A DNA stretch of 12,901 nucleotides from Verrucomicrobiota bacterium. GTDB taxonomy: Bacteria; Verrucomicrobiota; Verrucomicrobiia; Chthoniobacterales; UBA10450. Location: the NCBI GenBank assembly GCA_003219995.1, contig QHRC01000064.1:1-12901 (forward strand). The letters run 5' to 3'. The translations under genes were made by a program, and so were the position numbers. The notes under the pieces were generated by a model that ran no database searches, was not told the origin of the DNA, and saw nothing but the letters and a program-made list of their open reading frames with translations. This document shows, in pieces, positions 1,575-12,817 of the stretch (within the stretch, counting starts at the first letter, position 1; each line of letters opens with the position of its first letter).

Positions 1575-3257
1575 TTGTTTGGAAGCGAAAGCGAGAGCAA
1601 GCTTTTAAGTTCGGATTTCGATCTACAATTTGCCATTGTCGATCTTGTGCATCGAGCCGGATGTTTCATTCTCGTTGTTCTCGAGATCGCCATCTTAAGC
1701 GCGCTCATTCTGGCAGCCCGGGGCGCGAATTATCAGGATGTGTTCGTTGCCGGTAACGTTTATTTCACCGATGCGGATTGTTACGCGCGGATGACACGGG
1801 TGCGCATTTGCCAGCAACATCCGGGTTTGATCGTGCGTCATCACGATTTCGAAAATTATCCGCGCGGCACGACTCCGCATACGACTGCCCCGCTTGATTA
1901 TCTCATCCTCACATTATCGATCTTGCTCAAGCCGTTAACGATGCACGCGACCGATCTTGCCGGCGCATTCATCTCGCCGCTGCTCGCACTGCTCGGCGGC
2001 TGGTTTCTCTGGTGGTGGTCGCGGCTGATGAAATTCCGTTATCGCTGGGCGCTGCTCATTCTCTACGCCATTAGCCCGATTCTCGTTCACGCAACGGTCC
2101 TTGGACGACCCGACCATCAATCGCTCTCGATTTTGCTCGTCACCATCGCGATCTGCGCGGAATGGACTTGGCGAGGCGCCGGTTCGCGAAAATCCGATGC
2201 TACACGTGATTCACGTATGGCATGGTCTGCGCTGAGTGGTATTGCGTGGGGTCTGGCGATTTGGGTATCGCCTTATGAACCGCTGGTTTTGTTCCTTATC
2301 GTCCTTGCGATCACCGTGCTGCAAGATCGACATCTTCTTTTTGCGAAAGATCGGCGCATTAGCTGGATCTTGTTCGCGGTAGTCGTTGCGGTTGCATTCG
2401 TCGTGGAGAGACGGGTGCCGCAGTTGTCGATCTTTCATTCCGGGGAGCTTTTCCGGAACTGGTCGCGCTCGATTGGCGAACTTGCTCACGTCTGGCCGGC
2501 GAATTCGATCTGGTTTCACTGGGCCGGGTACATGATTGCGGTGGGGCCATTGCTCATTTGGGTTCTTGCCCGAGAGCAAAATAACGGCGCGTCTGGCGGT
2601 CGCGGCCAAGCAATATTCATTTTTGGACTTCTCCTGACGACCTATTGCTTGACAATCTGGCAGGCGCGCTGGGGTTATTTTTTCATGTCGATCTTCGCCA
2701 TCGCGCTTCCATTTTTACTGGAACCGATCAAATCACGAGGCGCGGTTTGGATTGCCTTTGCCTTGTCGATTTTTCCGATCCTTAGCGATTGGGATAAGCG
2801 GCTTTGGCCGAACGAAGCGGAGTACGGGCGCCGAGTGGAGCGGCGCAATGAATCGGCGCAGTTGCGCGATCTGGCGATCAATTTGGAATCGTCGGAGACG
2901 CATCCGTTTCTTGCACCATGGTGGATTTCTCCATCCATTGCGTATTGGTCAGGTCAACCTGGCGTGGCCGGCAGTTCGCACGAGAGCCTCGGCGGGATCG
3001 TGGAGAGCGCGCGATTTTTTCTTGCGGGAAATTGGGCGGAAGCGCGCGTCATTTTGGATAACCAGAAGGTGACATGGGTGCTGGTTTACGATGCCGAACG
3101 GGTTGCGCAAAATTCCGCGGCAGTGCTCGGTGTGACCGTGCCACGTCAAGCGCTTTGCTCGGTTCTGGAGAGAACATCCGCCCAGGTGCCGCGATTCCTG
3201 GTTTTGTCGGCCCAAAACGGAGTCGGCAAACTTTATCGAGTTGGTAATAATCGGTGA
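1575..3257 (+). CDS. Multi-spanning GT-C glycosyltransferase, STT3-like
   Basis: This 560-residue integral membrane protein probably transfers a sugar or oligosaccharide from a lipid carrier. After a first membrane segment (about 29-49) comes an acidic loop TDADCYARMTRVR (65-77). Its D66/D68 and following tyrosine and arginine resemble the first DxD-type loop of STT3/AglB/PglB. PRGTTPHTTAPLDYL (96-110) resembles the conserved proline-rich stretch after it, and GRPDHQS (177-183) sits where STT3 has its DHH-type motif. Further membrane segments cover about 111-400. A soluble C-terminal part has PWWISPSIAYWSG (448-460), recalling WWDYG but without the aspartate. At 560 residues it is shorter than most STT3 proteins. 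The frame opens at TTG 1575; GTG 1647, just before the first membrane segment, is an alternative. Acceptor and donor are unknown. Confidence 0.7.
   Translation: MFGSESESKLLSSDFDLQFAIVDLVHRAGCFILVVLEIAILSALILAARGANYQDVFVAGNVYFTDADCYARMTRVRICQQHPGLIVRHHDFENYPRGTTPHTTAPLDYLILTLSILLKPLTMHATDLAGAFISPLLALLGGWFLWWWSRLMKFRYRWALLILYAISPILVHATVLGRPDHQSLSILLVTIAICAEWTWRGAGSRKSDATRDSRMAWSALSGIAWGLAIWVSPYEPLVLFLIVLAITVLQDRHLLFAKDRRISWILFAVVVAVAFVVERRVPQLSIFHSGELFRNWSRSIGELAHVWPANSIWFHWAGYMIAVGPLLIWVLAREQNNGASGGRGQAIFIFGLLLTTYCLTIWQARWGYFFMSIFAIALPFLLEPIKSRGAVWIAFALSIFPILSDWDKRLWPNEAEYGRRVERRNESAQLRDLAINLESSETHPFLAPWWISPSIAYWSGQPGVAGSSHESLGGIVESARFFLAGNWAEARVILDNQKVTWVLVYDAERVAQNSAAVLGVTVPRQALCSVLERTSAQVPRFLVLSAQNGVGKLYRVGNNR
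1637..1646 (+). repeat. First copy of the over-represented word TGTCGATCTT
   Basis: The exact 10-base word occurs nine times in this window. On + it starts at 1637, 2425, 2686, 8800, 10620, 11570 and 12550. On - (read as AAGATCGACA on +) it lies at 2323-2332 and 5240-5249. The preceding base is T or A in eight of nine. Near matches with one change lie at 1914-1924, 2763-2773 and 12189-12199. Seven copies lie in genes and two in gaps. In genes it is read as VDL, LSIF, MSIF, DRH or KID, that is, in different frames. See findings. Confidence 0.85.
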
Positions 3258-3287
3258 AAAAGTGGGGGAATTTCCTATGAGAAGACG

Positions 3288-3313
3288 TTGACAGAATCGA
3301 CCAGTCTTACAAT
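3288..3313 (+). promoter_or_regulatory. Possible promoter of the bactofilin cluster
   Basis: A perfect TTGACA at 3288-3293 is followed by TACAAT at 3308-3313. The spacer is only 14 bases, so the pair is imperfect; AATAGT at 3311-3316 would give 17. Transcription would start near 3320, almost on the GTG at 3322. Translation would then be leaderless from 3322 or start at ATG 3361. Confidence 0.35.
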
Positions 3314-3321
3314 AGTAGCAT

Positions 3322-3876
3322 GTGTTAAGAAAATTCATCCCGCAGAAACCGATACCGGCGATGGAAGAAGGGTCGCCGCATTCAACTGGGGATGATTTCA
3401 ACCGGCTTGCGCGGAACGAACAATCAAACACATCACTATCCACAACTGACTATCAAAAACTTATGGCAGAACATTCCGGAAAAGACATCCTCTCGAGCGA
3501 TGTCGAAATCAAGGGCTCGATCAAATTTCAGAAAGAACTTCTTATCGACGGCAAGGTTGAAGGAGAAATCAATTCTGATGGTGTGCTGACGATTGGCGAA
3601 AATGCCGATATCCGGGGCGAGATCAAAACCAAATCGATCACGGTGTTTGGGAAGGTGCAGGGGAACATCACTGTGGCCGAGCGTTGCGAGCTAAAGACAA
3701 AGTGCACACTGCAAGGAGATTTGAAAGCGGCCCGGCTTGTCATCGAAGAAGGAGCAACTTTTATCGGGAAATCGGAAGTGACCAGCGGCGCGAGCCCGGC
3801 AAAATCGGTGACCGGGCGGCCGGAAATTGTTCGGCACGATGAGCCGGTAAAAGCCGCCTTTGGCGCTCGCACATAA
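3322..3876 (+). CDS. Bactofilin (polymer-forming cytoskeletal protein)
   Basis: Residues 57-150 of 184 form a typical bactofilin (DUF583) domain, a short right-handed beta-helix built from repeats such as SIKFQKELLIDGKVEGEI, VLTIGENADIRGEI, SITVFGKVQGNI and ARLVIEEGATFIG. Bactofilins self-assemble without nucleotide into filaments that scaffold envelope growth, stalks or polar proteins. The N-terminal tail (about 55 residues, polar) and C-terminal tail (rich in A, S, P) are low-complexity, as usual in the family. The frame opens at GTG 3322. ATG 3361 (residue 14) and ATG 3463 (residue 48, immediately before the domain) are plausible alternatives, and the last gives a length closer to compact bactofilins. 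It leads a tight + strand cluster with a second bactofilin-like gene 27 bp downstream. Confidence 0.9.
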   Translation: MLRKFIPQKPIPAMEEGSPHSTGDDFNRLARNEQSNTSLSTTDYQKLMAEHSGKDILSSDVEIKGSIKFQKELLIDGKVEGEINSDGVLTIGENADIRGEIKTKSITVFGKVQGNITVAERCELKTKCTLQGDLKAARLVIEEGATFIGKSEVTSGASPAKSVTGRPEIVRHDEPVKAAFGART

Positions 3877-3903
3877 CAAAGAGAGTGTTCGCGTAGCAAA
3901 CCA

Positions 3904-4743
3904 GTGGCCAAGCCGTCGCCTGCCAAGGTCAGTGTCGAATGTCCACACTGCGGTTTTAAGCAGATGGAGTATGCGGCGGCGAAGAGCACGGTGTGCCGCC
4001 AGTGCGGACGCTACTTCTCTCCATTTGCGCCTAAACCAGGACTAAAGCTCAAAGATCAAACTGCTACGGCCCCGGAACCTTCCGGTCTTCGCAAACTTGA
4101 AGGTCTCTGGAGCAAGCAGCGAACTCGACTGATAGGCTGCTTTGAGTGCAAGCGCAAACACGAAGTCAGTGACGCTGCGACATCGACAAATTGTCCGGGC
4201 TGCAGTGCCCACATTGATCTCCGCGATTACAAAATTGCAACCAGCTTTAGCCGATCGATCCGAACGCGGGGCGATGTTCATCTGACGGTCAAAGGCGATC
4301 TTAGCAGCACAAGTGTTGTTTGCAGATCGGCCCTGCTCGAGGGCAAGTTGCGTGGCAATCTCCAGTGCGAGACCTCAGCCACAATTAACCTCGTCGGAAA
4401 AATCCCGGGACGCCTTGTCGCCAATTATGTCTGCGTTGAGCGAAAAGCAGATGTCCAATGTTACCGACGCGTGAGAGTGGCGAATATCGACATAAAAGGA
4501 CGGATGTCCGGAGAAATAATTGCCACTGGCGCCGTGAACGTTCATAAAACCGGAGTACTTGAGGGCAATGTAGCGGCGAAATCGATCATGATCGACAAAG
4601 GCGGGATTTTTTCCGGCCAGCTTGTGATTGGACAAGCCGATCTTACACAAGCTGAATTGTTGCCGGAGCAAAAATCCGCAGCCGCGAGTACACGCGAATC
4701 GAGCGTCCCGGAAGCCGCGGCGCATCCTCTGCCTGCTACGTAA
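3904..4743 (+). CDS. Bactofilin-like protein with two N-terminal zinc ribbons
   Basis: The 279-residue product begins with a CPHC...CRQC zinc ribbon (C13, C16, C31, C34). After a linker, a second cysteine set follows (C79, C82, C97, C100: CFEC...CPGC). Residues about 118-245 then show the bactofilin-type beta-helix pattern, with turns such as VHLTVKGDL, SALLEGKLRGNL, VANIDIKGRMSGEI, VNVHKTGVLEGNV and SIMIDKGGIFSGQL. The last 30 residues are a disordered A/S/P/E tail. The fold implies polymerisation or co-assembly with the bactofilin encoded 27 bp upstream. The ribbons could recruit a partner or bind metal or nucleic acid, which is inference. The start is GTG 3904, giving MAKPSPAKV; a purine-rich AAAGAGAG lies too far upstream to be a good ribosome-binding site. 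Confidence 0.8.
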   Translation: MAKPSPAKVSVECPHCGFKQMEYAAAKSTVCRQCGRYFSPFAPKPGLKLKDQTATAPEPSGLRKLEGLWSKQRTRLIGCFECKRKHEVSDAATSTNCPGCSAHIDLRDYKIATSFSRSIRTRGDVHLTVKGDLSSTSVVCRSALLEGKLRGNLQCETSATINLVGKIPGRLVANYVCVERKADVQCYRRVRVANIDIKGRMSGEIIATGAVNVHKTGVLEGNVAAKSIMIDKGGIFSGQLVIGQADLTQAELLPEQKSAAASTRESSVPEAAAHPLPAT

Positions 4744-4754
4744 GCTTCGCGTCG

Positions 4755-5174
4755 ATGCAAAAACTGCGTCCACGCAGTCCCTACGAAAGACTCGGCGGGT
4801 ACGTGCATCTGCCGCGCTTAATCGACAAAGCCAGATTGCACCGAAAAGGCCTGCTCAACGGCTACAATTACAAAACCGTCGGCTTCGATAAACATTTGCT
4901 CGCGTTTTTAAAACTCAACCCGGATGCATTTGAAGAAGCGGCCAACCGGCTGGACGACGACCATGCCGTTCTAAGATGGGTGGAGGAACGTTGCGTCAAG
5001 CATTCTCGGGAAGCAATCGAGCAATGGAATGAGGTGATGATTTCCCGTCACCCGGACACGGCCGTAAAAAAAGCACGCTTTTTACACTTTCTCAAAGAAG
5101 CGGGCGGCGAAGGTCGCAAGGACATTCGGACTTACTTCGATCTCATCGAATTCGATGAAGGACGGTTGAAATGA
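4755..5174 (+). CDS. DUF5069 domain-containing protein
   Basis: This 139-residue soluble protein matches my recollection of DUF5069 over its whole length: RSPYERLGGYVHLPRLIDKARL near the N terminus, then LNGYNYKTVGFDKHLLAFL, a central acidic helix, and RWVEERCVKHS with EQWNE. The function of the family is unknown; it is common in Verrucomicrobiota and Planctomycetota. No catalytic motif, signal peptide or membrane segment is visible. ATG 4755 lies 11 bp after the zinc-ribbon bactofilin stop, so it is probably the last gene of that operon. Its TGA stop lies inside the first ATGACGAA unit of the downstream repeat. Confidence 0.8.
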   Translation: MQKLRPRSPYERLGGYVHLPRLIDKARLHRKGLLNGYNYKTVGFDKHLLAFLKLNPDAFEEAANRLDDDHAVLRWVEERCVKHSREAIEQWNEVMISRHPDTAVKKARFLHFLKEAGGEGRKDIRTYFDLIEFDEGRLK

Positions 5175-5230
5175 CGAAGCACGAATGACGAATCGGCCAA
5201 CAGCTTTTCCTCTACTGGTTCGTCATTCGT
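5171..5230. repeat. ATGACGAA direct and inverted repeat between convergent genes
   Basis: ATGACGAA occurs at 5171-5178 and again at 5185-5192. The longer unit ACGAATGACGAA (5181-5192) is repeated perfectly in inverted orientation at 5219-5230, giving a 12-bp stem around a 26-base spacer. It fills the gap between two convergent genes, so it may act as a bidirectional terminator, though no T-run follows. It also looks like a dispersed REP-type intergenic repeat. Confidence 0.65.
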
Positions 5231-5239
5231 CGGTCCTTT

Positions 5240-5249
5240 AAGATCGACA
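5240..5249 (-). repeat. Intergenic copy of TGTCGATCTT (reverse orientation)
   Basis: An exact copy on the - strand, 1 base beyond the stop codon of the nucleotidyltransferase gene. No protein-coding constraint applies here, which supports selection of the word as DNA. Confidence 0.85.
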
Positions 5250-5250
5250 G

Positions 5251-5997
5251 TCACTGTTTGGCAAAAAGCTCATTGGCTTGTGCGAGTGTCTCTTTGCTGC
5301 CGATATCGAGCCATTTCCCTTTGATCTGGAAAGCATTCACCGGCTTGCGCTGATAAAGCCATTGCACAAACCGGCCCGGCTGATCGGGATTATTTCCCGC
5401 GGCAAGATAGGTGGTCAGGAGAGCGGAGGCTTCGCGTGAGTAATAATAAACCGCAAGAGCGGCCAGAGTGCTTCGCGGCTTCTCCGGCTTTTCTTCAAAG
5501 TGCGTGATGTTGTTGTTCGAATCGATCGCAATGTTGCCATATTTTTTTATCGCCTCCAGATCGCCGACATCGTAAGCGGCAACGGTCGCCACAGTATTCT
5601 TCGCATAGTCAACAAAGCCCCGGAGCGATTCGCTAAAGAGATTATCGCCCGCGATGATCAATAAATCGCGCTGCGCCAAATTCTCACGGCTAATCACAAA
5701 ATTAATATCTCCGATCGCGCCTAATTTATCGTCATCGCTTTTCGAACCGTCATTGACAATTTTAAGTTCGAGTGCCGGGCGTCGATTTTGATAACTTTCT
5801 GCCCAAACCCGAAAATCGCTCGCGAACTTGTCGTTGGTTACGATGTAAATAGTTCCGAGGCTTGGAACTTCGGCTAGGTTATCCAGGACCCATTCGATTA
5901 TGGGCCGGCCTGCGACTTCCAGTAACGGCTTGGGCTTGTCGAGCGTGAGTGGATAAAGGCGGGTCGCATAACCAGCAGCGAGGATGATTACGTTCAT
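5251..5997 (-). CDS. Sugar-phosphate nucleotidyltransferase family protein
   Basis: This 248-residue single-domain enzyme probably makes an NDP-sugar from a sugar-1-phosphate and an NTP, with release of pyrophosphate. It begins with the nucleotide-binding signature LAAGYATRLYPLT (6-18) followed by DKPKPLLEV (20-28), in which the catalytic arginine R13 and lysine K23 are present. GDN at 117-119 supplies the metal-binding aspartate D118. FEEKP at 167-171 and WLDIGSKETL (229-238) complete the sugar-binding and second-metal motifs. The length and lack of a C-terminal beta-helix fit the glucose-1-phosphate thymidylyl-/cytidylyl-/uridylyltransferase group; the exact NTP and sugar cannot be assigned. 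It starts 45 bp downstream of glnD on the same strand. Envelope-related genes occur in the + strand cluster next to it. Confidence 0.85.
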   Translation of the reverse strand: MNVIILAAGYATRLYPLTLDKPKPLLEVAGRPIIEWVLDNLAEVPSLGTIYIVTNDKFASDFRVWAESYQNRRPALELKIVNDGSKSDDDKLGAIGDINFVISRENLAQRDLLIIAGDNLFSESLRGFVDYAKNTVATVAAYDVGDLEAIKKYGNIAIDSNNNITHFEEKPEKPRSTLAALAVYYYSREASALLTTYLAAGNNPDQPGRFVQWLYQRKPVNAFQIKGKWLDIGSKETLAQANELFAKQ

Positions 5998-6042
5998 GCC
6001 GGTGCGAGACCATAGAGAGCGGGGAAAAACGAGCCAGCTATT

Positions 6043-8793
6043 TCAATGCTCGAGCGCCGCCAGTTGGAGATATTTTTGGAGCGCGGCGATGCGTTGTGAG
6101 TCGGTGATTTTGCTCCGAGTGGAGCGGTCAGCGACATAAAAAGTGTCGATAGCCGCTCCTTTCTGCGTGCTGATGCGCGAGAGCGCGATGGAAACGCCTT
6201 CGCGGTCCAGGCACGCGAGAAGGTCGTAGAGCAAACCGAGCCGGTCGGGCGTTTGAATTTGGATGAGCGTGTAAGTGGGATGTGCCCTGTTATCCATCGC
6301 GATGCGAGTAGGGAATTCTATTTCCTGGACAAGACGATGCCGGCTTTGATCCCTCGCTTTTTCCATTAACTGTCCAAAATCGAACTCGACGTTCTCGAGC
6401 GCGGTATGCAGGGTTTTTTCGACCAGCTTCAGATCCGCCTTGTCGGTAACCGCGCGTGCTTTCGTGTCGCAAACCCGAAAAATGTCTAGAACGACATTGT
6501 CTCCCCGGGAAAAAATGTCCGCGCTCAAGATATTAATTGGAACAACCGAAAACGAGCCGGCGATTTTGGCCAATAGTTGTTCGCGGTCCCAAGTGCAGAA
6601 ACTGACAATACTGTGACCCTCCTCGGGGAACGCTTCCCAATTGATTGCCGGAGCCAACGGCTGCTCGCCACCCATGGATACGTTCTCAAGAAATGCGCGA
6701 AAAAGTTCAAGATGCCCGACAATTTCGGGAACGTTGAAAGCCCGAAAATAATTGTCCGGCATGAAATCAAAGTGCGCTTCAATCTCCTCCCCGTAATCGC
6801 GAGAAAGGTTATCGGCGATAGAGCGTTGCAGGCTTTCACGCTCGATTTTTGTTTGTTCGTAATAGGATTTTTGGTCGGCGAGGTATTGCGAAGTGGCATG
6901 AAAGAGTTGCCAGACGAGCGATTCCTTCCAATCAGACCACGCTTCCGCGCTCGTGCCCTGGCCGTCCGCCAAGGTGAGGAGCATCAGTGTATTCAAGTTC
7001 TTCTGATCCCGTACGATGTTGCCCAACTCCACCACCGTGGCCGGATCATCGAGATTTCTCTGTTGCGCAATATTGGAGAGCGTGAGGTGATGATCGACGA
7101 GAAGAATAAGGGATTTGCGCTGCTCGGAAGACAACTGCAGACGCGTTGCGACGCGCTGGGCAAAAAGCGCGCTCGCTTCTGAGTGCGGGCGCGCCCCCAC
7201 CGCTTTGCCCGTGTCGTGCAAAAGCAGTGCCAGGTAAAGAATAAAAGGATCTTCAAGTCGCTCAAAGAGCTTCCGATACGAAACCAGTTTCGGGTCAGCC
7301 GTCTGCGCCAGCGCATCGAGTTTGTCGATACAAACTAGTGTGTGCTCGTCCGCCGTGTAACGATGACGAAACTCATGTTGGACAAGGCAGGTTAGCTGGC
7401 CAAACTCGGGAATGTAGCGACCGAGAAAATCGACGCGATGCATCATTCGCAGGACGCGTCCCACTTTTCCCTTTTGCGATAGGACCGTCTTAAAAACTTC
7501 GCGCGGGGACTTGGCATATTGATATGTCCGCGTGATTTGCCTGAGGCTTCGGGTAAGCAAGTCTGCCAGGTCCGGACTAACATCCAGAGCGCGCTGCTGC
7601 GCGAGCCGAAAAACATGCATCATCTGCACCGGCTCTTTGTGAAAGAGATCGCGTTGGTCGGTGTTGAGTTGTCCGTTGCGAATGAAAAACGGCCCAACCC
7701 GTGTCTCATCGCTGCGCACCAAAGGCAGAAAACTAAAAAGCGAACGTGTTCGCTCCGTGGCGCGTCCGCTCGCAAATTGTTCCGTGATCCGCTCCGTCAC
7801 GCGGAAAATGTTTCGGGTGTGTTCATAGTACTGGCGCATGAGCGCCTCGCTTCGGAGCTGCCCCCGCTCCGAGGAATAGTTCAAGCGTTTCGCGATTTGC
7901 TCCTGCATATTAAGATGGAGAAAATCTGTGGGCCGCCCGGTGGCGTAGTGCAGATCCGTGCGAATGCGAAGAAGGAAATCGTAAGCCCGCTCGATCCGGC
8001 GCTGATCGGATTGGCTCAGCCAATCTTTCCCGACAAGGTGCGTCGTGGTCAGAGCGCCTTCCTTGAAATAAGTCATCCAGAGTAGATTTTGATAATCGCG
8101 CAAACCACCGCACCCGCTTTTTAGGTGTGGCTCTTGCATGTAAACGCTGTCCCCAAATTTTTTATGGCGCGCGATTTGATCCTGCATCCGCATTTCGACG
8201 TAGCCCCGCTCATTACCGGCCACACATTTTGAGCGAAATTGGTCTCGAAATTCTCTCGCCAGCTCGGCCTCTCCCGCCAGATGACGCGACTCGAGCATCG
8301 AGGTTTTTGTGCGCATGTCGCGATTGGCCTGAGTGATAGCCTCCTTAATCGAACGGGTGGAGTGACCGACCTTGAAACCGATATCCCAAAGCGAATAGAG
8401 AATTTGCTCGACGATTTGCTCGAGGTAGGGCGGGACTTTCCGGGCGCTTTGGCCATGCAGGAGCATGACGTCGACATCGCTAAAAGGATTGAGCTCTCCC
8501 CGGCCATACCCGCCAAGCGCAATAAGGGCGAGCGGCACCTTTGCCTTCTCCTCACTCCCCGTTGAAGTGGTCGCAGCGGTGAAAACGTGTCGCAATAGAA
8601 CATCGACAAGATCGGCCCGTCGCGCGCAAATTTCACGACCACTGCCACCAGCCTGATGTTTCAAGCGCAATCGATGTTCTTCGATCTTCAGAAATTTTTT
8701 GTAAAACGGAAGGACCTCCGTCGGACGTCTTGCGCCGGTGGCCGCGAGCTGGTTCTCCGCATGCGCCAGGACTTGTTCGAGATGGCGAGACAT
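6043..8793 (-). CDS. glnD: [Protein-PII] uridylyltransferase / uridylyl-removing enzyme GlnD
   Basis: This 916-residue protein has the full GlnD architecture. The nucleotidyltransferase domain has GGYGRGELNPFSDVDVMLL (94-112) with catalytic D106 and D108. The family motif KSGCGGLRD is at 225-233. An HD phosphohydrolase domain has HEFRH (473-477), HDTGK (526-530) and DHH (567-569). Two ACT domains follow (about 728-790 and 840-900, the second with TPDRLGLLYDLLACL). The family uridylylates PII proteins when glutamine is low and removes UMP when it is high, and so controls glutamine synthetase activity and the Ntr system. Length is close to the usual 850-950. ATG 8793 is the only good start. The gene lies 120 bp downstream of an NtrC-type regulator, which suggests a shared nitrogen theme. 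No PII or glutamine synthetase gene is in the window. Confidence 0.95.
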   Translation of the reverse strand: MSRHLEQVLAHAENQLAATGARRPTEVLPFYKKFLKIEEHRLRLKHQAGGSGREICARRADLVDVLLRHVFTAATTSTGSEEKAKVPLALIALGGYGRGELNPFSDVDVMLLHGQSARKVPPYLEQIVEQILYSLWDIGFKVGHSTRSIKEAITQANRDMRTKTSMLESRHLAGEAELAREFRDQFRSKCVAGNERGYVEMRMQDQIARHKKFGDSVYMQEPHLKSGCGGLRDYQNLLWMTYFKEGALTTTHLVGKDWLSQSDQRRIERAYDFLLRIRTDLHYATGRPTDFLHLNMQEQIAKRLNYSSERGQLRSEALMRQYYEHTRNIFRVTERITEQFASGRATERTRSLFSFLPLVRSDETRVGPFFIRNGQLNTDQRDLFHKEPVQMMHVFRLAQQRALDVSPDLADLLTRSLRQITRTYQYAKSPREVFKTVLSQKGKVGRVLRMMHRVDFLGRYIPEFGQLTCLVQHEFRHRYTADEHTLVCIDKLDALAQTADPKLVSYRKLFERLEDPFILYLALLLHDTGKAVGARPHSEASALFAQRVATRLQLSSEQRKSLILLVDHHLTLSNIAQQRNLDDPATVVELGNIVRDQKNLNTLMLLTLADGQGTSAEAWSDWKESLVWQLFHATSQYLADQKSYYEQTKIERESLQRSIADNLSRDYGEEIEAHFDFMPDNYFRAFNVPEIVGHLELFRAFLENVSMGGEQPLAPAINWEAFPEEGHSIVSFCTWDREQLLAKIAGSFSVVPINILSADIFSRGDNVVLDIFRVCDTKARAVTDKADLKLVEKTLHTALENVEFDFGQLMEKARDQSRHRLVQEIEFPTRIAMDNRAHPTYTLIQIQTPDRLGLLYDLLACLDREGVSIALSRISTQKGAAIDTFYVADRSTRSKITDSQRIAALQKYLQLAALEH

Positions 8794-8799
8794 GGTGAT

Positions 8800-8809
8800 T
8801 GTCGATCTT
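8800..8809 (+). repeat. Copy of TGTCGATCTT in the glnD leader
   Basis: An exact copy in the 120-bp gap between the NtrC-type regulator gene and glnD, 7 bases from the glnD start codon. On the glnD mRNA strand it reads AAGATCGACA just before ATG. It occupies the position of a ribosome-binding site but is a poor Shine-Dalgarno match. The rest of the gap (8810-8913) holds two short palindromes, CTTGGCCAAG and CTCCGGAG, and no promoter I can defend. Confidence 0.8.
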
Positions 8810-8913
8810 AGCGCGGGATGTTGTCAGCGCCAATGAACTGTAGTCGCTGGCTTGGCCAAGGGCGGCATGAGACGCGTTCGGGCGCGACGATAGCGTCCTC
8901 CGGAGAGCGTCGG

Positions 8914-10308
8914 CTACAACTCGATCGCGTAACGCTTCATTTTGTTGTAAAGCGTCGGTCGCTGGATGCCAAGAAGCTGGGCCGCTTTCTTCTTGTTCCC
9001 ATGACATTGCGCGAGCGCCTGAAGAATTGTGTTTCGCTCCATGTCATCCAGGGTCTGCACGCCGGCTCGCTGTGCAATCCCGCGCTCGGATTGCTGCAGT
9101 GCGTTTGGCAACTGTAATTCTGCGGGCAACTCTTTTACGCCAATTAGATTTTGCCGCGCCAGGACCACTGCATACTCCATTGCATTCTGCAATTCGCGCA
9201 CGTTACCCGGCCAGGCGTAGTCGAGTAATTTCTCGAAAGCATCCGGCGCGATCGTTGGCTCGGGCTTGCCAAGTTGCTCCGCGAATTGTTTCACAAATGA
9301 AGCGACCAGCGGCGGAATATCCTGTTTTCGTTCTCGCAGCGGCGGCACTTCGATCTGAAATGTATTCAGCCGATAATACAAATCGGAGCGCAGGCGATTC
9401 TCGGCGAGCGCTTGTGCTACGGGTCGATTGGTCGCGGCGATGACCCGGAAATCGGCCTTGAGCGTGCGCGTGCTGCCCAACGGCCGGTACTCGCGCTCCT
9501 GCAGCACGCGCAAGAAACGCGTCTGTAAATCCGCCGGCATATCGGAAATCTCATCGAGAAACAAAGTGCCTCCACCGGCCGCAGCGATCATTCCTGGAAA
9601 ATCGTTCATCGCGCCGGTGAAAGCGCCTTTTACATAACCAAAGAGTTCTCCCTCAATCAGCGTCTGTGGAAATGCGGCGCAGTTGAGCTTTACCATTGGT
9701 TTGGCGGCGCGACGGCTGCGCGTATGGATCACATTGGCGATTACTTCTTTGCCCGTCCCGCTTTCCCCCGTGATTAAGACATTTGCTTCCGAAGGCGCCA
9801 TCGCCTCGATCAGTTCGTCAATCTCTTGCATCACCTTGCTTTTGAAAACAGGAGCCAGGCGCGTTTCGGCAATTTCAAGACGCTTCTCCAGCTGTTCTGT
9901 TTTCTGACGCAGCTCTTTCGTCTCGCGGAGAAGCAACTCCTTTTCCAAAGCTTTCTCCACCAAACTAAGCAACTCTTCCGGGGCGTACGGTTTGCTGATA
10001 AAATGAAAAGCACCGCGCTTGATCGACTCGATCGCGTTGCTCAAGGAATCGTGCGCCGTCAAAATGATGACTTGGGTCTCCGGAGACTCCGCTTTGATTT
10101 GATCGAGTGTTTGCAGTCCTTCCGCGTCGGGTAGCTGGAGATCAAGCAAAACCAGGTCAGGCGACTTCGTCTTCAACAATCGAAGGCCGTGCGAAGCAGT
10201 GCCGGAGGTTTCAACCTGATAACCATGCCGGCCGAGAAGCGCCTCCAGCGTCAGGAGGATCGGCCGCTCATCGTCAATGATCAGAATTCGGCGCTGAGCT
10301 GTCGTCAT
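8914..10308 (-). CDS. Sigma-54-dependent response regulator (NtrC/AtoC family)
   Basis: The 464 residues show three domains in canonical order. The receiver (1-120) has D12-D13, phospho-acceptor D56 (LVLLDLQLP), T84 and K106. After a coiled-coil linker (about 112-150), the AAA+ sigma-54 activation domain has Walker A GESGTGKE (181-188), the GAFTGA loop (228-233) that contacts sigma-54, Walker B TLFLDE (248-253), and an arginine-rich sensor region through 325. WPGNVRELQ (366-374) marks the lid. A Fis-type helix-turn-helix (about 433-458, NKKKAAQLLGIQRPTLYNKM) binds DNA. When phosphorylated it should hexamerise and open sigma-54 promoters. It lies 78 bp downstream of a histidine kinase on the same strand and upstream of glnD. 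Its targets cannot be named from here. Confidence 0.95.
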   Translation of the reverse strand: MTTAQRRILIIDDERPILLTLEALLGRHGYQVETSGTASHGLRLLKTKSPDLVLLDLQLPDAEGLQTLDQIKAESPETQVIILTAHDSLSNAIESIKRGAFHFISKPYAPEELLSLVEKALEKELLLRETKELRQKTEQLEKRLEIAETRLAPVFKSKVMQEIDELIEAMAPSEANVLITGESGTGKEVIANVIHTRSRRAAKPMVKLNCAAFPQTLIEGELFGYVKGAFTGAMNDFPGMIAAAGGGTLFLDEISDMPADLQTRFLRVLQEREYRPLGSTRTLKADFRVIAATNRPVAQALAENRLRSDLYYRLNTFQIEVPPLRERKQDIPPLVASFVKQFAEQLGKPEPTIAPDAFEKLLDYAWPGNVRELQNAMEYAVVLARQNLIGVKELPAELQLPNALQQSERGIAQRAGVQTLDDMERNTILQALAQCHGNKKKAAQLLGIQRPTLYNKMKRYAIEL

Positions 10309-10386
10309 GGAGATGATGCTCGCGCCAATCCAGGTTGCGGTTGCCCGTTTTTGGAATTGGTCGCTCCAAAATTCACGCCCAACACT

Positions 10387-11097
10387 TCAACCCTGTTTTG
10401 CGGACAAAGGCAGCATAATTGTCGTAACCAGAACCGATTCCGTTGGATCATAATGAGCGCTCAACTGGCCGCCGTGAGCTTCGACAATAACGCGTGCGCA
10501 GTTTAGTCCAAGCCCATAATGCCCGGGGCTGATTTTCCGAAGCGGTTCGCGTCCCCAGTTTGCGGTGGATGATTCGAATCGCGATTTTGGCTCGCGCAGG
10601 GTCAAAACAAATCGGTCATTGTCGATCTTGGCCGTGACACCGAGCGCTCCGTCACCACGCTCATGTCGAAAGGCATTATTGAACAGTTCGATCAACGCCC
10701 GCTGCAGCAATTGCGGGTCGACCTCGAGCGTGGCCTCATTTAATTGAACGTCCCAACTGATGGCCGCACTCTCCTGCGGGAAATCATTCGCGATCTTCTT
10801 GCGCAGGTCCTCGATAAAATCCGCCCCGCCATAAGGCATGAATTCCGTCTTAATCTGACCGAAGCCTGCCGAAAGCCTCTGCAAAACCGCGCTCAGCCCG
10901 GAGAGCGTTTCGCGCAACCTCATGATCTCCTCTTTGATTTCCGAGTCCGTGGTCAATTCGCCGATGTACGCGCTTTGCAGCTCGGCTGCATTCAGGTGAT
11001 TGCGTAAATCGTGACTCAGTTGCCGAACAAACCGCACCATGTCGATCCACGGAATACTTAACAAATCATTTTGAGCATCGGGAACGGCGCTTGTCAT
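10387..11097 (-). CDS. Small cytosolic sensor histidine kinase without a visible sensor domain
   Basis: The 236-residue protein has an H box LSHDLRNHLNA with phospho-acceptor H29, a dimerisation helix pair (about 20-80), an N box LIELFNNAFRH (135-145) and a G2 box GHYGLGLNCARVIVEAHGG (192-210), so it has a HisKA-like plus HATPase_c core. There is no membrane segment, HAMP or PAS domain, and only about 20 residues precede the kinase core. The segment where the G1 box (DxGxG) is expected reads LREPKSRFES (167-176) and lacks the nucleotide-binding aspartate. ATP binding may therefore be altered, or this may be an unusual subfamily. It is followed after 78 bp by the NtrC-type regulator, almost certainly its partner, and starts 21 bp after the broken pgi. 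Input is probably cytoplasmic, possibly through a partner protein. Confidence 0.85.
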   Translation of the reverse strand: MTSAVPDAQNDLLSIPWIDMVRFVRQLSHDLRNHLNAAELQSAYIGELTTDSEIKEEIMRLRETLSGLSAVLQRLSAGFGQIKTEFMPYGGADFIEDLRKKIANDFPQESAAISWDVQLNEATLEVDPQLLQRALIELFNNAFRHERGDGALGVTAKIDNDRFVLTLREPKSRFESSTANWGREPLRKISPGHYGLGLNCARVIVEAHGGQLSAHYDPTESVLVTTIMLPLSAKQG

Positions 11098-11118
11098 ATT
11101 CGACGAAAAAGTTAACCG

Positions 11119-12682
11119 CTATTCTGCGACTGAAAACATCTCATCACCCGGCTGCTCGGCCGCGACAACTCGAATACGGGCATCATTGGCCGCAAGATGA
11201 CGCAGAACGTGAAATACGTCTTCGGGATCCGCGTCGATGGAGCGGGCTATTTCTTCCGCTGTCTTTCCGGCCGTGGCGCTAAGATTTTCACGCACCTGTG
11301 TTTGCAATTGCAACAATTTTGTCGCCGCCTTTTTTCCTGCCTCTACTCCAGGCTGATGATAAGCGTTGATGTTGACGAGCGATCCATAGAAACCGACCGC
11401 ACGCTCGTACAGCGCAATCAACGCTCCAACGTTGAATTCGTTCACTTCCGGGATGCTCACGGTGATCGATTCACGTCCGCTCTCATAAAGTGCGCTGCGT
11501 GTCCCGCGCAGGAATCCTTGAAGATAATCGCCGCTGGTGATGCCGTCTTCCACTTCAAAGGCCATACCATGTCGATCTTTGCGAACCTCGATGAAAGTGA
11601 CGAAAAAATTCAAAATACCGTCGCGCAATTGCTGGACGTAAGCGTGCTGGTCGGTCGAGCCTTTGTTCCCATAAACGGCGATGCCTTGATGAACGACGTT
11701 GCCATCAAGGTCTTTTTCTTTGCCTAACGATTCCATCACGAGCTGCTGCAAATATTTGCTGAACAGGGCCAGCCGATCCTTGTATGGCAAAACGACCATG
11801 TCTTTTTCGCCATGACCGTTGCCAGCGTAATGCCACATCAGCGCTAGAAGCATAGCTGCGTTTTGCGCGACGTCGGGCACGCGCGTCCGCTCGTCCATGG
11901 CGGCGGCCCCTGATAAGAAGTTGTCAATCTCAAAACCTTCGAGCGCCATCGGCACCAGTCCAACCGCGCTCATGACGGAGGTTCGTCCGCCGATCCAATC
12001 GTACATCGGGAAACGCCCCAGCCATCCATCTTTCGTCGCGTATTTGTCCAGCTCGCTGCCCACGCCAGTGACCGCGACCGCCTGTTTGCCAAATTGAAGT
12101 CCGGTCGACTTGAATTTTGCCTCCGCTTCCAACATCCCGTTGCGCGTTTCCTTCGTCCCACCGGATTTCGAAACCACGATGACAAGCCTTGTCGATCTGG
12201 TCGAGGACTCGGTCGAAACCGTCGGGATCGGTGTTGTCGAAAAAATAAATGTCCATCGGATCCCGCGTCGATCCGAGCGCATCTGCAACGAACTGGGGTC
12301 CGAGCGCGGAACCACCGATTCCGATCAACAAAACGTGCGCGAACTTTTTCCGATTCGCCGCTGCAACTTTTCCAGAGTGAACATCCGCCGCGAACTGCTT
12401 GACGCGCTTGTTCGTTTCTTCGATATCGGCGCGCAGTTGCTAGTTCGGCGCCAGTGCCGGATTGCGCAGCCAATAATGACCGACCATTCGCTTTTCATCC
12501 GGATTGGAGAGCGCGCCCGCTTCCAATTCGTGCATGGCGGCAAACGCCTTGTCGATCTTGGCTCGCATGTTGACGAAAAAATCGTCCGGAAATTTCATCC
12601 GGCTAACGTCGATGGAAAAATCGAGCTCGTCGTAGCGGAGAAAATAGCGCTGGAAACGTTGCCAACGTGAGGAGGAAGCCAT
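11119..12682 (-). pseudogene. pgi: Glucose-6-phosphate isomerase gene with an amber codon and a frameshift
   Basis: Together the three parts cover a normal-length PGI (about 520 codons). From ATG 12682 the frame reads MASSSRWQRFQRYF to NPALAPN and meets TAG at 12440-12442 (codon 81). The same frame continues as a clear PGI sequence, [23 protein letters not shown] then [18 protein letters not shown]. Near 12190 the homology jumps to another frame, [19 protein letters not shown], which runs intact to TAG at 11119-11121. It includes the phosphosugar-binding SKSGGTKET, the catalytic-region signature [11 protein letters not shown] and the C-terminal [10 protein letters not shown]. Relatives, as I recall, have about four more residues at the junction, so an 11- or 14-base deletion fits. 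The enzyme interconverts glucose-6-P and fructose-6-P. Sequencing or assembly error is possible, but two separate lesions favour real decay; the rest is well preserved, so decay would be recent. Confidence 0.85.
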
Positions 12683-12699
12683 GTGGGAAGAATAATGGC

Positions 12700-12721
12700 G
12701 GGACGACCTCTGTGTCGTCCC
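12700..12721. repeat. Hairpin with CTCTGT / ACAGAG loop upstream of pgi
   Basis: GGGACGAC (12700-12707) pairs perfectly with GTCGTCCC (12714-12721) around loop CTCTGT, which reads ACAGAG on the pgi strand. It lies 18 bases upstream of the pgi start codon, within its probable mRNA leader. The arm GTCCC can alternatively pair with GGGAC at 12732-12736. Confidence 0.7.
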
Positions 12722-12737
12722 CAAAATTTTAGGGACT

Positions 12738-12801
12738 GTAGCCGCCCCGCTCAGCTGGGGTGTTTTCGAAAATGAACACGGCGACAGAGCGCCGTGGCTA
12801 C
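12738..12801. repeat. Composite palindromic repeat (64 bp, GTAGCC ends)
   Basis: The element is bounded by GTAGCC (12738-12743) and its inverse GGCTAC (12796-12801). Inside are a CCCC/GGGG hairpin (12745-12760), a TTTTCGAAAA palindrome (12763-12772) and a perfect 7-bp hairpin CACGGCG/CGCCGTG (12777-12783 with 12790-12796) whose loop is ACAGAG. The nested symmetry and intergenic location suggest a dispersed, possibly mobilised non-coding repeat. No transposase is nearby, and only one copy of the full element is in this window. Confidence 0.6.
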
Positions 12802-12817
12802 GCACCTTCGAAAAGAC

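Follow-up and report, generated by a model that had tools for sequence, protein, structure and literature searches.

A short word repeated throughout genomes of one Verrucomicrobiota family and resembling a DNA uptake sequence

To our knowledge, uptake words are established only in the Neisseriaceae and the Pasteurellaceae, with no counter-example among the literature matches listed. Here we describe a 10-bp word, TGTCGATCTT (hereafter word 1), that recurs within a stretch of DNA from a Verrucomicrobiota bacterium (contig QHRC01000064.1, 12,901 nucleotides, analysed over its full length and called the window) and throughout the draft genome to which the window belongs, G000 (2,097,096 bases, 285 contigs, 77% complete). 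Word 1 is like the DNA uptake sequences (DUS) of Neisseriaceae, non-palindromic words of 10-12 bp with thousands of copies, a core stricter than the flanks and, as a possible further likeness, an atypical content in mobile elements (excerpts of PMC3630211 and PMC7371117). It is also like the uptake signal sequences (USS) of Pasteurellaceae, which are short and non-palindromic, number hundreds to thousands of copies, show no general orientation bias and occur in more than one version within a family (excerpts of PMC2346458 and PMC1939737), and like the highly iterated palindromes of Cyanobacteria (HIP1 and alternate HIPs), which are iterated genome-wide, lineage-specific and deviate off centre (excerpts of PMC4390886). 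That word 1 is a maintained genome-wide feature is practically certain, and we consider it probable that it is a self-recognition word similar to a DUS, spread via biased uptake and recombination.

All counts were computed from draft genomes, mostly fragmented, and the expectations depend on the model used. The whole G000 genome contained 996 copies of word 1, 499 forward and 497 reverse, and no copy of the reversed word, a weak control because the reversed string contains CTAG. In a G000 sample of 228.6 kb (21 of the 285 contigs including the window, two of them cut at 20 kb), word 1 was the most frequent 10-mer, and the count against a Markov model that the earlier note on this DNA had proposed, run here on samples, gave 129 copies versus expectations of 1.7 (order 3) and 13 (order 5). 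Another genome of the same family, G013, yielded 1,000 exact copies in 622 kb versus 7 (order 3) and 112 (order 5) expected. When synonymous codons were shuffled in predicted genes (simple in-house calls), 100 shuffles of the G000 sample gave 5.5 copies on average and at most 11 versus 100 observed, and 223 kb of G013 gave 16 (maximum 25) versus 250 observed. These shuffles and the spread over reading frames rule out protein or codon constraint as the cause, in agreement with the view of the earlier note that protein constraint was insufficient. Chance, codon usage or base composition could draw on the order-5 model, which raises the expectation to 13 in G000 and 112 in G013, but the 129 and 1,000 copies observed, the shuffle result of 100 versus a maximum of 11 and the near absence of the word in other genera of the family make such an origin extremely improbable.

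The anatomy of word 1 was examined through its flanks and its one-mismatch forms. The word is not palindromic on inspection and contains both GATC and TCGA. A or T preceded 967 of the 1,000 copies in the 622 kb of G013 and 114 of the 129 in the G000 sample, and the same preference, first noticed in the window, was found again on recheck (8 of 9 copies). USS flanks carry long A+T-rich blocks, whereas the flanks of word 1 in G013 have none; USS and word 1 are also unrelated in sequence, and the link to competence is putative for word 1. One-mismatch forms in the 622 kb of G013 numbered 237 versus 118 expected, beside the 1,000 exact copies, with an excess at positions 7-10, chiefly T to A at position 10 (62 vs 1.2), and with counts of 79 versus about 71 at positions 1-6 (position 4 alone showing a small excess, 13 vs 4) and 37 versus about 29 at positions 3-6. 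In G000, 125 such forms were found versus about 34 expected, the excess lying at positions 1-2 and 7-10 and positions 3-6 showing none (11 vs 9). The TCGA centre is thus nearly invariant in both genomes, since the one-mismatch spectra are near background there, and the 5' end tolerates less variation in G013 than in G000. A strict short core with tolerant flanks is also seen in DUS and USS, the tolerance here being that of genomic copies, not of uptake. One-mismatch sites add 24% to the exact copies in G013, the corresponding figure for the kingDUS of Kingella oralis being 21% (excerpts of PMC3630211). Relative to the order-3 expectation, the excess in G013 fell from about 140 times for exact copies to about 2 times for forms with one mismatch, which is a 70-fold drop (about 20-fold in G000); drops of 92-fold and 82-fold are reported for the respective uptake words in Haemophilus influenzae and Neisseria gonorrhoeae, with an expectation computed differently (excerpts of PMC1939737).

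In the window itself, word 1 was the commonest 10-mer by k-mer count, and matches with at most one mismatch numbered 15 versus 0.98 expected, a count reached by none of 200 dinucleotide shuffles. All nine exact copies listed by the earlier note were recovered at the same coordinates and on the same strands; they fall in several frames, and the two described as intergenic (5240 and 8800) do lie between the main open reading frames (ORFs), the other seven being inside ORFs. The shared orientation of seven of the nine proved not to be general and is attributed to chance, given the near-equal split over the whole genome (499 forward, 497 reverse copies) and the lack of orientation domains in 420 kb of G013. 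The history of the sites was followed by alignment to relatives (L051, L052, L053 and L066 below).

1637..1646, + strand: exact word 1 in ORF 1575-3257, read VDL; outside the alignment of every relative
2323..2332, - strand: exact word 1 opposite to ORF 1575-3257, read DRH; exact in L066, two changes in L053
2425..2434, + strand: exact word 1 in ORF 1575-3257, read LSIF; exact in L066 and L053
2686..2695, + strand: exact word 1 in ORF 1575-3257, read MSIF; exact in L066 and L053
5240..5249, - strand: exact word 1, intergenic, directly past the end of ORF 5251-5997 (-); diverged and gapped in L053 and L052
8800..8809, + strand: exact word 1, intergenic, 6 bp upstream of the start of ORF 6043-8793 (-); exact in L066, L053 and L052, four changes in L051
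10620..10629, + strand: exact word 1 opposite to the histidine-kinase-like ORF 10387-11097 (-), read KID; one change in L053, two in L066, exact in L051
11570..11579, + strand: exact word 1 opposite to ORF 11119-12315 (-), read DRH; exact in L066 and L053, two changes in L051
12550..12559, + strand: exact word 1 opposite to ORF 12440-12805 (-), read KID; exact in L066 and L053, changed in L051
1915..1924, + strand: one-mismatch site TATCGATCTT; counterpart is exact word 1 in L066 and L053
2764..2773, + strand: one-mismatch site TGTCGATTTT; counterpart is exact word 1 in L066 and L053
12190..12199, + strand: one-mismatch site TGTCGATCTG; counterpart is exact word 1 in L066 and L051

Among the copies of word 1 in G000 that were aligned to close relatives at least 84% identical, 25 of 33 were unchanged, three had one-base and three two-base changes, and two fell at gaps, compared with 169 of 417 unchanged for other TCGA-centred 10-mers (Fisher p = 9.5e-5), the 33 aligned pairs sitting at 18 distinct positions and therefore not all being independent. 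Spread of the word by insertion of a mobile repeat is unsupported, given that orthologous sites differ mainly by substitution, with 2 of 33 at a gap.

The abundance of word 1 follows genus. Among 83 genomes of the family, 49 from seven genera (g1, g5, g8, g11, g12, g13 and g14) were rich in the word, with 74-4,653 copies, and 34 from seven other genera (g2, g3, g4, g6, g7, g9 and g10) were poor, with 9-85 copies, so that the two ranges touch at their ends. Variation within a genus can be wide (74-755 in g5, 147-1,016 in g14). G102 is probably the Candidatus Udaeobacter MAG COA_Bin_6_1, given a match at identical coordinates in the two, and g5 would then correspond to that genus. The 4,653 copies of G013 lie in about 2.9 Mb, corresponding to one per 620 bp or 1.6 per kb. 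Some of the family genera with low counts have a similar G+C content, as in G006, and outside the family, the 384 genomes of the phylum that were sampled had at most 57 copies. Comparison with related genomes, also suggested in the earlier note, found the word abundant in seven genera of the family. In a tree of GlnD proteins with 30 rows, the 14 word-1-rich rows formed one branch (support 100/100), and a single origin of word 1 is therefore the simplest reading, judged from one gene and one tree.

A k-mer scan of the relatives' stretches brought up a second word, TCGTTAGGC (word 2; loci L081-L092, L101-L103 and L118-L155), which is unrelated to word 1. It was present in 1,410-4,605 copies in five genomes of g10, 2,147 in G004 (g2) and 1,802 in G013, and in 19-587 copies in the remaining 76 genomes of the family. 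Outside the family, five of 278 sampled genomes of the class had 59-133 copies (four of them in one genus) and the rest at most 39; a moderately raised count (61-133) was noted in G285, G288, G297 and G625 of genus g64, which belongs to another family of the class. The copies are scattered in both orientations, in two stop-free frames per strand and in gaps between genes. By inspection neither word 2 nor its invariant part, GTTAG, is a palindrome, and the word has no GATC. In 163 kb of G027, 182 exact copies were accompanied by 119 one-mismatch forms versus 54 expected, and in G013 the figures were 418 exact and 550 versus 171; there the excess was restricted to positions 1-2 and 8-9, with positions 3-7 (GTTAG) at 88 versus about 110. 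Neutral decay of word 2 in G013 was rejected on this restriction, and looser recognition fits better. In the GlnD tree, the five rows of g2 and g10 formed the first-parting branch within the family and G013 lay inside the word-1 branch, and because of this we read word 2 as probably the older word, which word 1 has largely replaced, G013 having remained rich in both; this would be the simplest history. The two words have no evident common core, whereas DUS dialects all share CTG, and the DUS belong to an unrelated phylum and are unrelated in sequence.

The string GTTAGGC within word 2 agrees with GTTRRRY, the core consensus of attC sites. Integron attC arrays were nevertheless rejected as its source in G013 and G027, where the copies are scattered, in both orientations and in non-stop frames. 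Two clusters of word 2 in G038 (C7:94047-96651 and C2:640583-643004), with a spacing of about 400-1,300 bp and six copies in the same orientation on C7, do look like integron cassette arrays. Whereas attC sites would form paired inverted cores in cassette arrays, word 2 had two pairs below 60 bp on 420 kb of G013, and the 163 kb of G027 held eight pairs within 40 bp, of which six were same-strand. K-mer scans of 9-100 kb samples from word-poor genera (9 kb for G011, 31 kb for G006) found no third word at comparable density. In G020 (L156-L160), overlapping 12-mers, CCGGATCGTACA and others, reached up to 17 copies in 100 kb and possibly belong to one repeat family.

The centre of word 1 invites comparison with methylation sites. 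In a process like that of HIP1, a methyltransferase would recognise the central letters, and repair biased by methylation would create and preserve the sites, with no role in uptake. The presence of GATC and TCGA in word 1 is consistent with this, as is the avoidance of the centre by one-mismatch forms (which lie at positions 1-2 and 7-10 in G000 and mainly at 7-10 in G013), since HIP1 deviations are mostly at the ends too and the HIP1 model predicts saturation at a typical spacing (excerpts of PMC4390886). These two features, deviations that also avoid the centre and a model that also predicts spacing, make it the strongest other reading, but HIPs are palindromic and have matching methyltransferases (excerpts of PMC4390886), whereas words 1 and 2 and GTTAG are not palindromes and the two methyltransferase families screened, PF02086 and PF01555, yielded no word-specific enzyme. 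PF02086 (D12, the Dam-class methyltransferase) had no match in 12 of the 14 word-rich genomes tested, G013 among the 12, and PF01555 was matched in 30 of 31 genomes, whether rich or poor in word 1. Outside word 1, GATC occurred at expectation, and TCGA exceeded expectation by 3-16% in four genomes, word-poor ones among them, and fell slightly short of it in the last of the five. We hold a HIP1-like process to be unlikely, and a role in GATC methylation is disfavoured by the D12 result, the unenriched GATC outside word 1 and the GATC-free word 2.

The placement of word 1 was examined as well. Intergenic copies made up 26.0% of word 1 in 220 kb of G013 (88 of 338) and 22.5% in G000 (29 of 129), versus 15.1% and 14.0% of non-coding DNA, respectively. 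Over 420 kb of contig C4 of G013, the two orientations were balanced (353 vs 348) and mixed without domains (runs z = +0.64), and word 2 gave a runs z of -1.1. Chi sites and FtsK-orienting polar sequences (KOPS) are likewise short words repeated along the chromosome, but KOPS and most known Chi sites are oriented with replication; a KOPS-like orienting word was rejected on the random orientation of word 1 over these 420 kb of G013, and a Chi-like role, which orientation does not support, is disfavoured. When pairs 15 or 16 bp apart were merged and the 55-75 kb region was omitted, the coefficient of variation (CV) of word 1 spacing on C4 was 0.79 versus 1.00 ± 0.04, more even than in all 1,000 random sets; the HIP1 model also predicts spacing, so this evenness cannot separate a HIP1-like process from uptake. 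Word 2 was not evenly spaced (281/1,000 in G027; 387/1,000 and 620/1,000 in two tests of G013).

Close copies of word 1 in G013 follow a narrow rule. Among same-strand pairs within 60 bp on C4, 41 of 47 were exactly 15 or 16 bp apart, a distance of about one and a half DNA turns, and in the remaining stretches this held for 11 of the 15 same-strand pairs closer than or at 40 bp; with the 15 and 16 bp pairs set aside, 35 gaps on C4 were below 100 bp versus about 99 expected. Downstream partners matching at least 8 of 10 letters were found at 15 and 16 bp for 41 and 20 of 990 sites, versus at most four at the other same-strand distances tested. The pairs were observed in G013 loci L081-L091 and L121-L140, and the G000 sample held one 15 bp pair. 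Duplication as their origin was rejected, the spacers and outer flanks of the pairs inspected differing by eye. Such pairs would suit a site for a chromosomal protein (nucleoid, recombination or Chi-like) whose copies are selected for chromosome coverage: the 41 of 47 on C4 suggest paired binding, and the scarcity of other gaps below 100 bp (35 vs about 99) points the same way. However, the random orientation is unlike that of KOPS and most known Chi sites, selection would be needed copy by copy on 4,653 10-mers inside and outside genes, and a word-free region with mobile-element genes fits spread over time better than structural need, so that we regard this explanation as unlikely.

That region contains the longest word-1-free gap in the 420 kb of G013:C4 (61,686-74,720, 13,034 bp; one region in one genome), which holds a phage-type integrase (PHROG 1, E = 1.2e-54; Pfam PF00589, 2.2e-17), is bordered by a gene with a weak tape-measure match (3.8e-6) and has a gene with a transposition-protein match (3.1e-11) near it. 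From 53,768 to 74,720, three copies of word 1 were found versus about 35 expected from mean spacing, and eight of word 2 versus about 14. In Neisseriaceae, an atypical DUS distribution serves to locate integrative elements (excerpts of PMC7371117). The stretch from about 54,000 to 74,700 (L122-L123), a phage-like or mobile region, also encodes a DUF2326 protein.

Pairing of copies and coexistence of two words, both seen in G013, have a precedent in Simonsiella muelleri, in whose genome two DUS dialects occur together and 1,294 copies form overlapping pairs (excerpts of PMC3630211). The S. muelleri dialects, however, are only one base apart, and its pairs are dyads (same excerpts). The pairs and the two words could also reflect an undescribed form of upkeep, neither uptake nor HIP, in which a protein reads the tandem pair at 15-16 bp, some process restores the exact word, and TCGTTAGGC has been displaced by TGTCGATCTT in the family; we think this unlikely.

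Among the four roles named in the earlier note, an uptake sequence thus appears to fit best, the orienting word having fallen away in the 420 kb of G013, the Chi-like role having found no support in orientation and the GATC methylation role being disfavoured. In favour of it count the genome-wide excess, also over codon shuffles, the restriction to certain genera of one family that form a single branch, the lack of polarity, the nearly invariant centre of a non-palindromic word, sites that are kept better than comparable 10-mers and alter chiefly by substitution, the intergenic excess, the one word-free region with mobile-element genes and the exchange for another word in relatives. On the uptake reading, word 1 with its preceding A or T would work like the DUS of Neisseriaceae or the USS of Pasteurellaceae. 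The preference for word-bearing DNA would reside in a DNA receptor, which most likely belongs to the machinery of the type IV pilus and of competence, so that DNA of the cell's own kind would enter more often; recombination with incoming DNA would then spread new copies and repair broken ones, and the word would grow dense wherever genes and gaps tolerate it. We infer from sequence both that word 1 is read during uptake and which protein might read it. Competence genes, which the earlier note had proposed to look for, are present in the family, 76 of 83 genomes having a ComEC match and 81 of 83 a match to the PilT family (77 of them over the cut-off), but they are not specific to word-rich genera. 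They permit the uptake reading without proving it, because word-poor genera have them equally and some word-rich genomes lack matches.

Several observations weigh against an uptake role. ComEC and PilT-family matches occur in all 14 genera, including the word-poor ones, and being equally present there they do not discriminate. Seven genomes gave no ComEC match, and five of them are word-rich (G003, G034, G077, G082 and G102; 68-80% complete); six of the 83 genomes have no PilT match over the cut-off, and G025, the richest of g5 with 755 copies, has a best PilT match of E = 4.2e-52, under the cut-off; low-scoring PilT matches may represent other ATPases of pilus or secretion systems. No receptor for word 1 was identified, no search aimed at candidates having been made, and the uptake role is deduced from draft-genome computation. 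A Markov model of order 5 lowers the excess of word 1 to about 9-fold in G013 and about 10-fold in G000, the smaller excess arising because word 1 inflates its own sub-words. The spacing on C4 has a CV of 1.15, above random, when all copies are counted; the remaining 202 kb of G013 showed no significant evenness (CV 0.92, 80/1,000), and it was absent in G000 (405/1,000). Close opposite-strand pairs are rare, with 16 within 60 bp on C4, about half of the 35 estimated from density. In known uptake systems, close inverted pairs are linked to terminators (excerpts of PMC2346458). Compared with the DUS, then, inverted pairs are rare here and G013 has direct pairs at 15/16 bp, and uptake and receptor are presumed.

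Among the open-access literature matches listed, there was no report of such a word in Verrucomicrobia; a search with the core TGTCGATC listed no title on Verrucomicrobia, and one on competence and Verrucomicrobia listed no match naming that group. If the uptake reading is true, self-marking of DNA would have evolved again in a distant phylum, in uncultured soil Verrucomicrobia of a family that includes Candidatus Udaeobacter, and gene exchange through transformation, subject to a species filter, would be probable among its soil members. The occurrence of two unrelated words within a single family, together with a genome rich in both, would make the origin and replacement of such words testable, and word 1 is a practical marker for binning and for spotting foreign DNA in genomes of this family.

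The neighbours of word 1 in the window were also inspected. ORF 6043-8793 (-) resembles GlnD by eye, and the closest named relatives of its product were from Verrucomicrobia, Spartobacteria, Chthoniobacterales and metagenome-assembled genomes of Candidatus Udaeobacter. A protein search of plasmids returned general NtrC-type relatives and nothing else. ORFs 12440-12805, 11930-12331 and 11119-12315 (all -) are, as we take them by eye, glucose-6-phosphate isomerase-like, which would make one gene (11119-12805) split over three ORFs in different frames, with apparent frameshifts arising from assembly errors or a broken gene. Two bactofilin genes (PF04519) are adjacent at 3322-3876 and 3904-4743 (+), the second with an N-terminal part that is cysteine-rich by eye.

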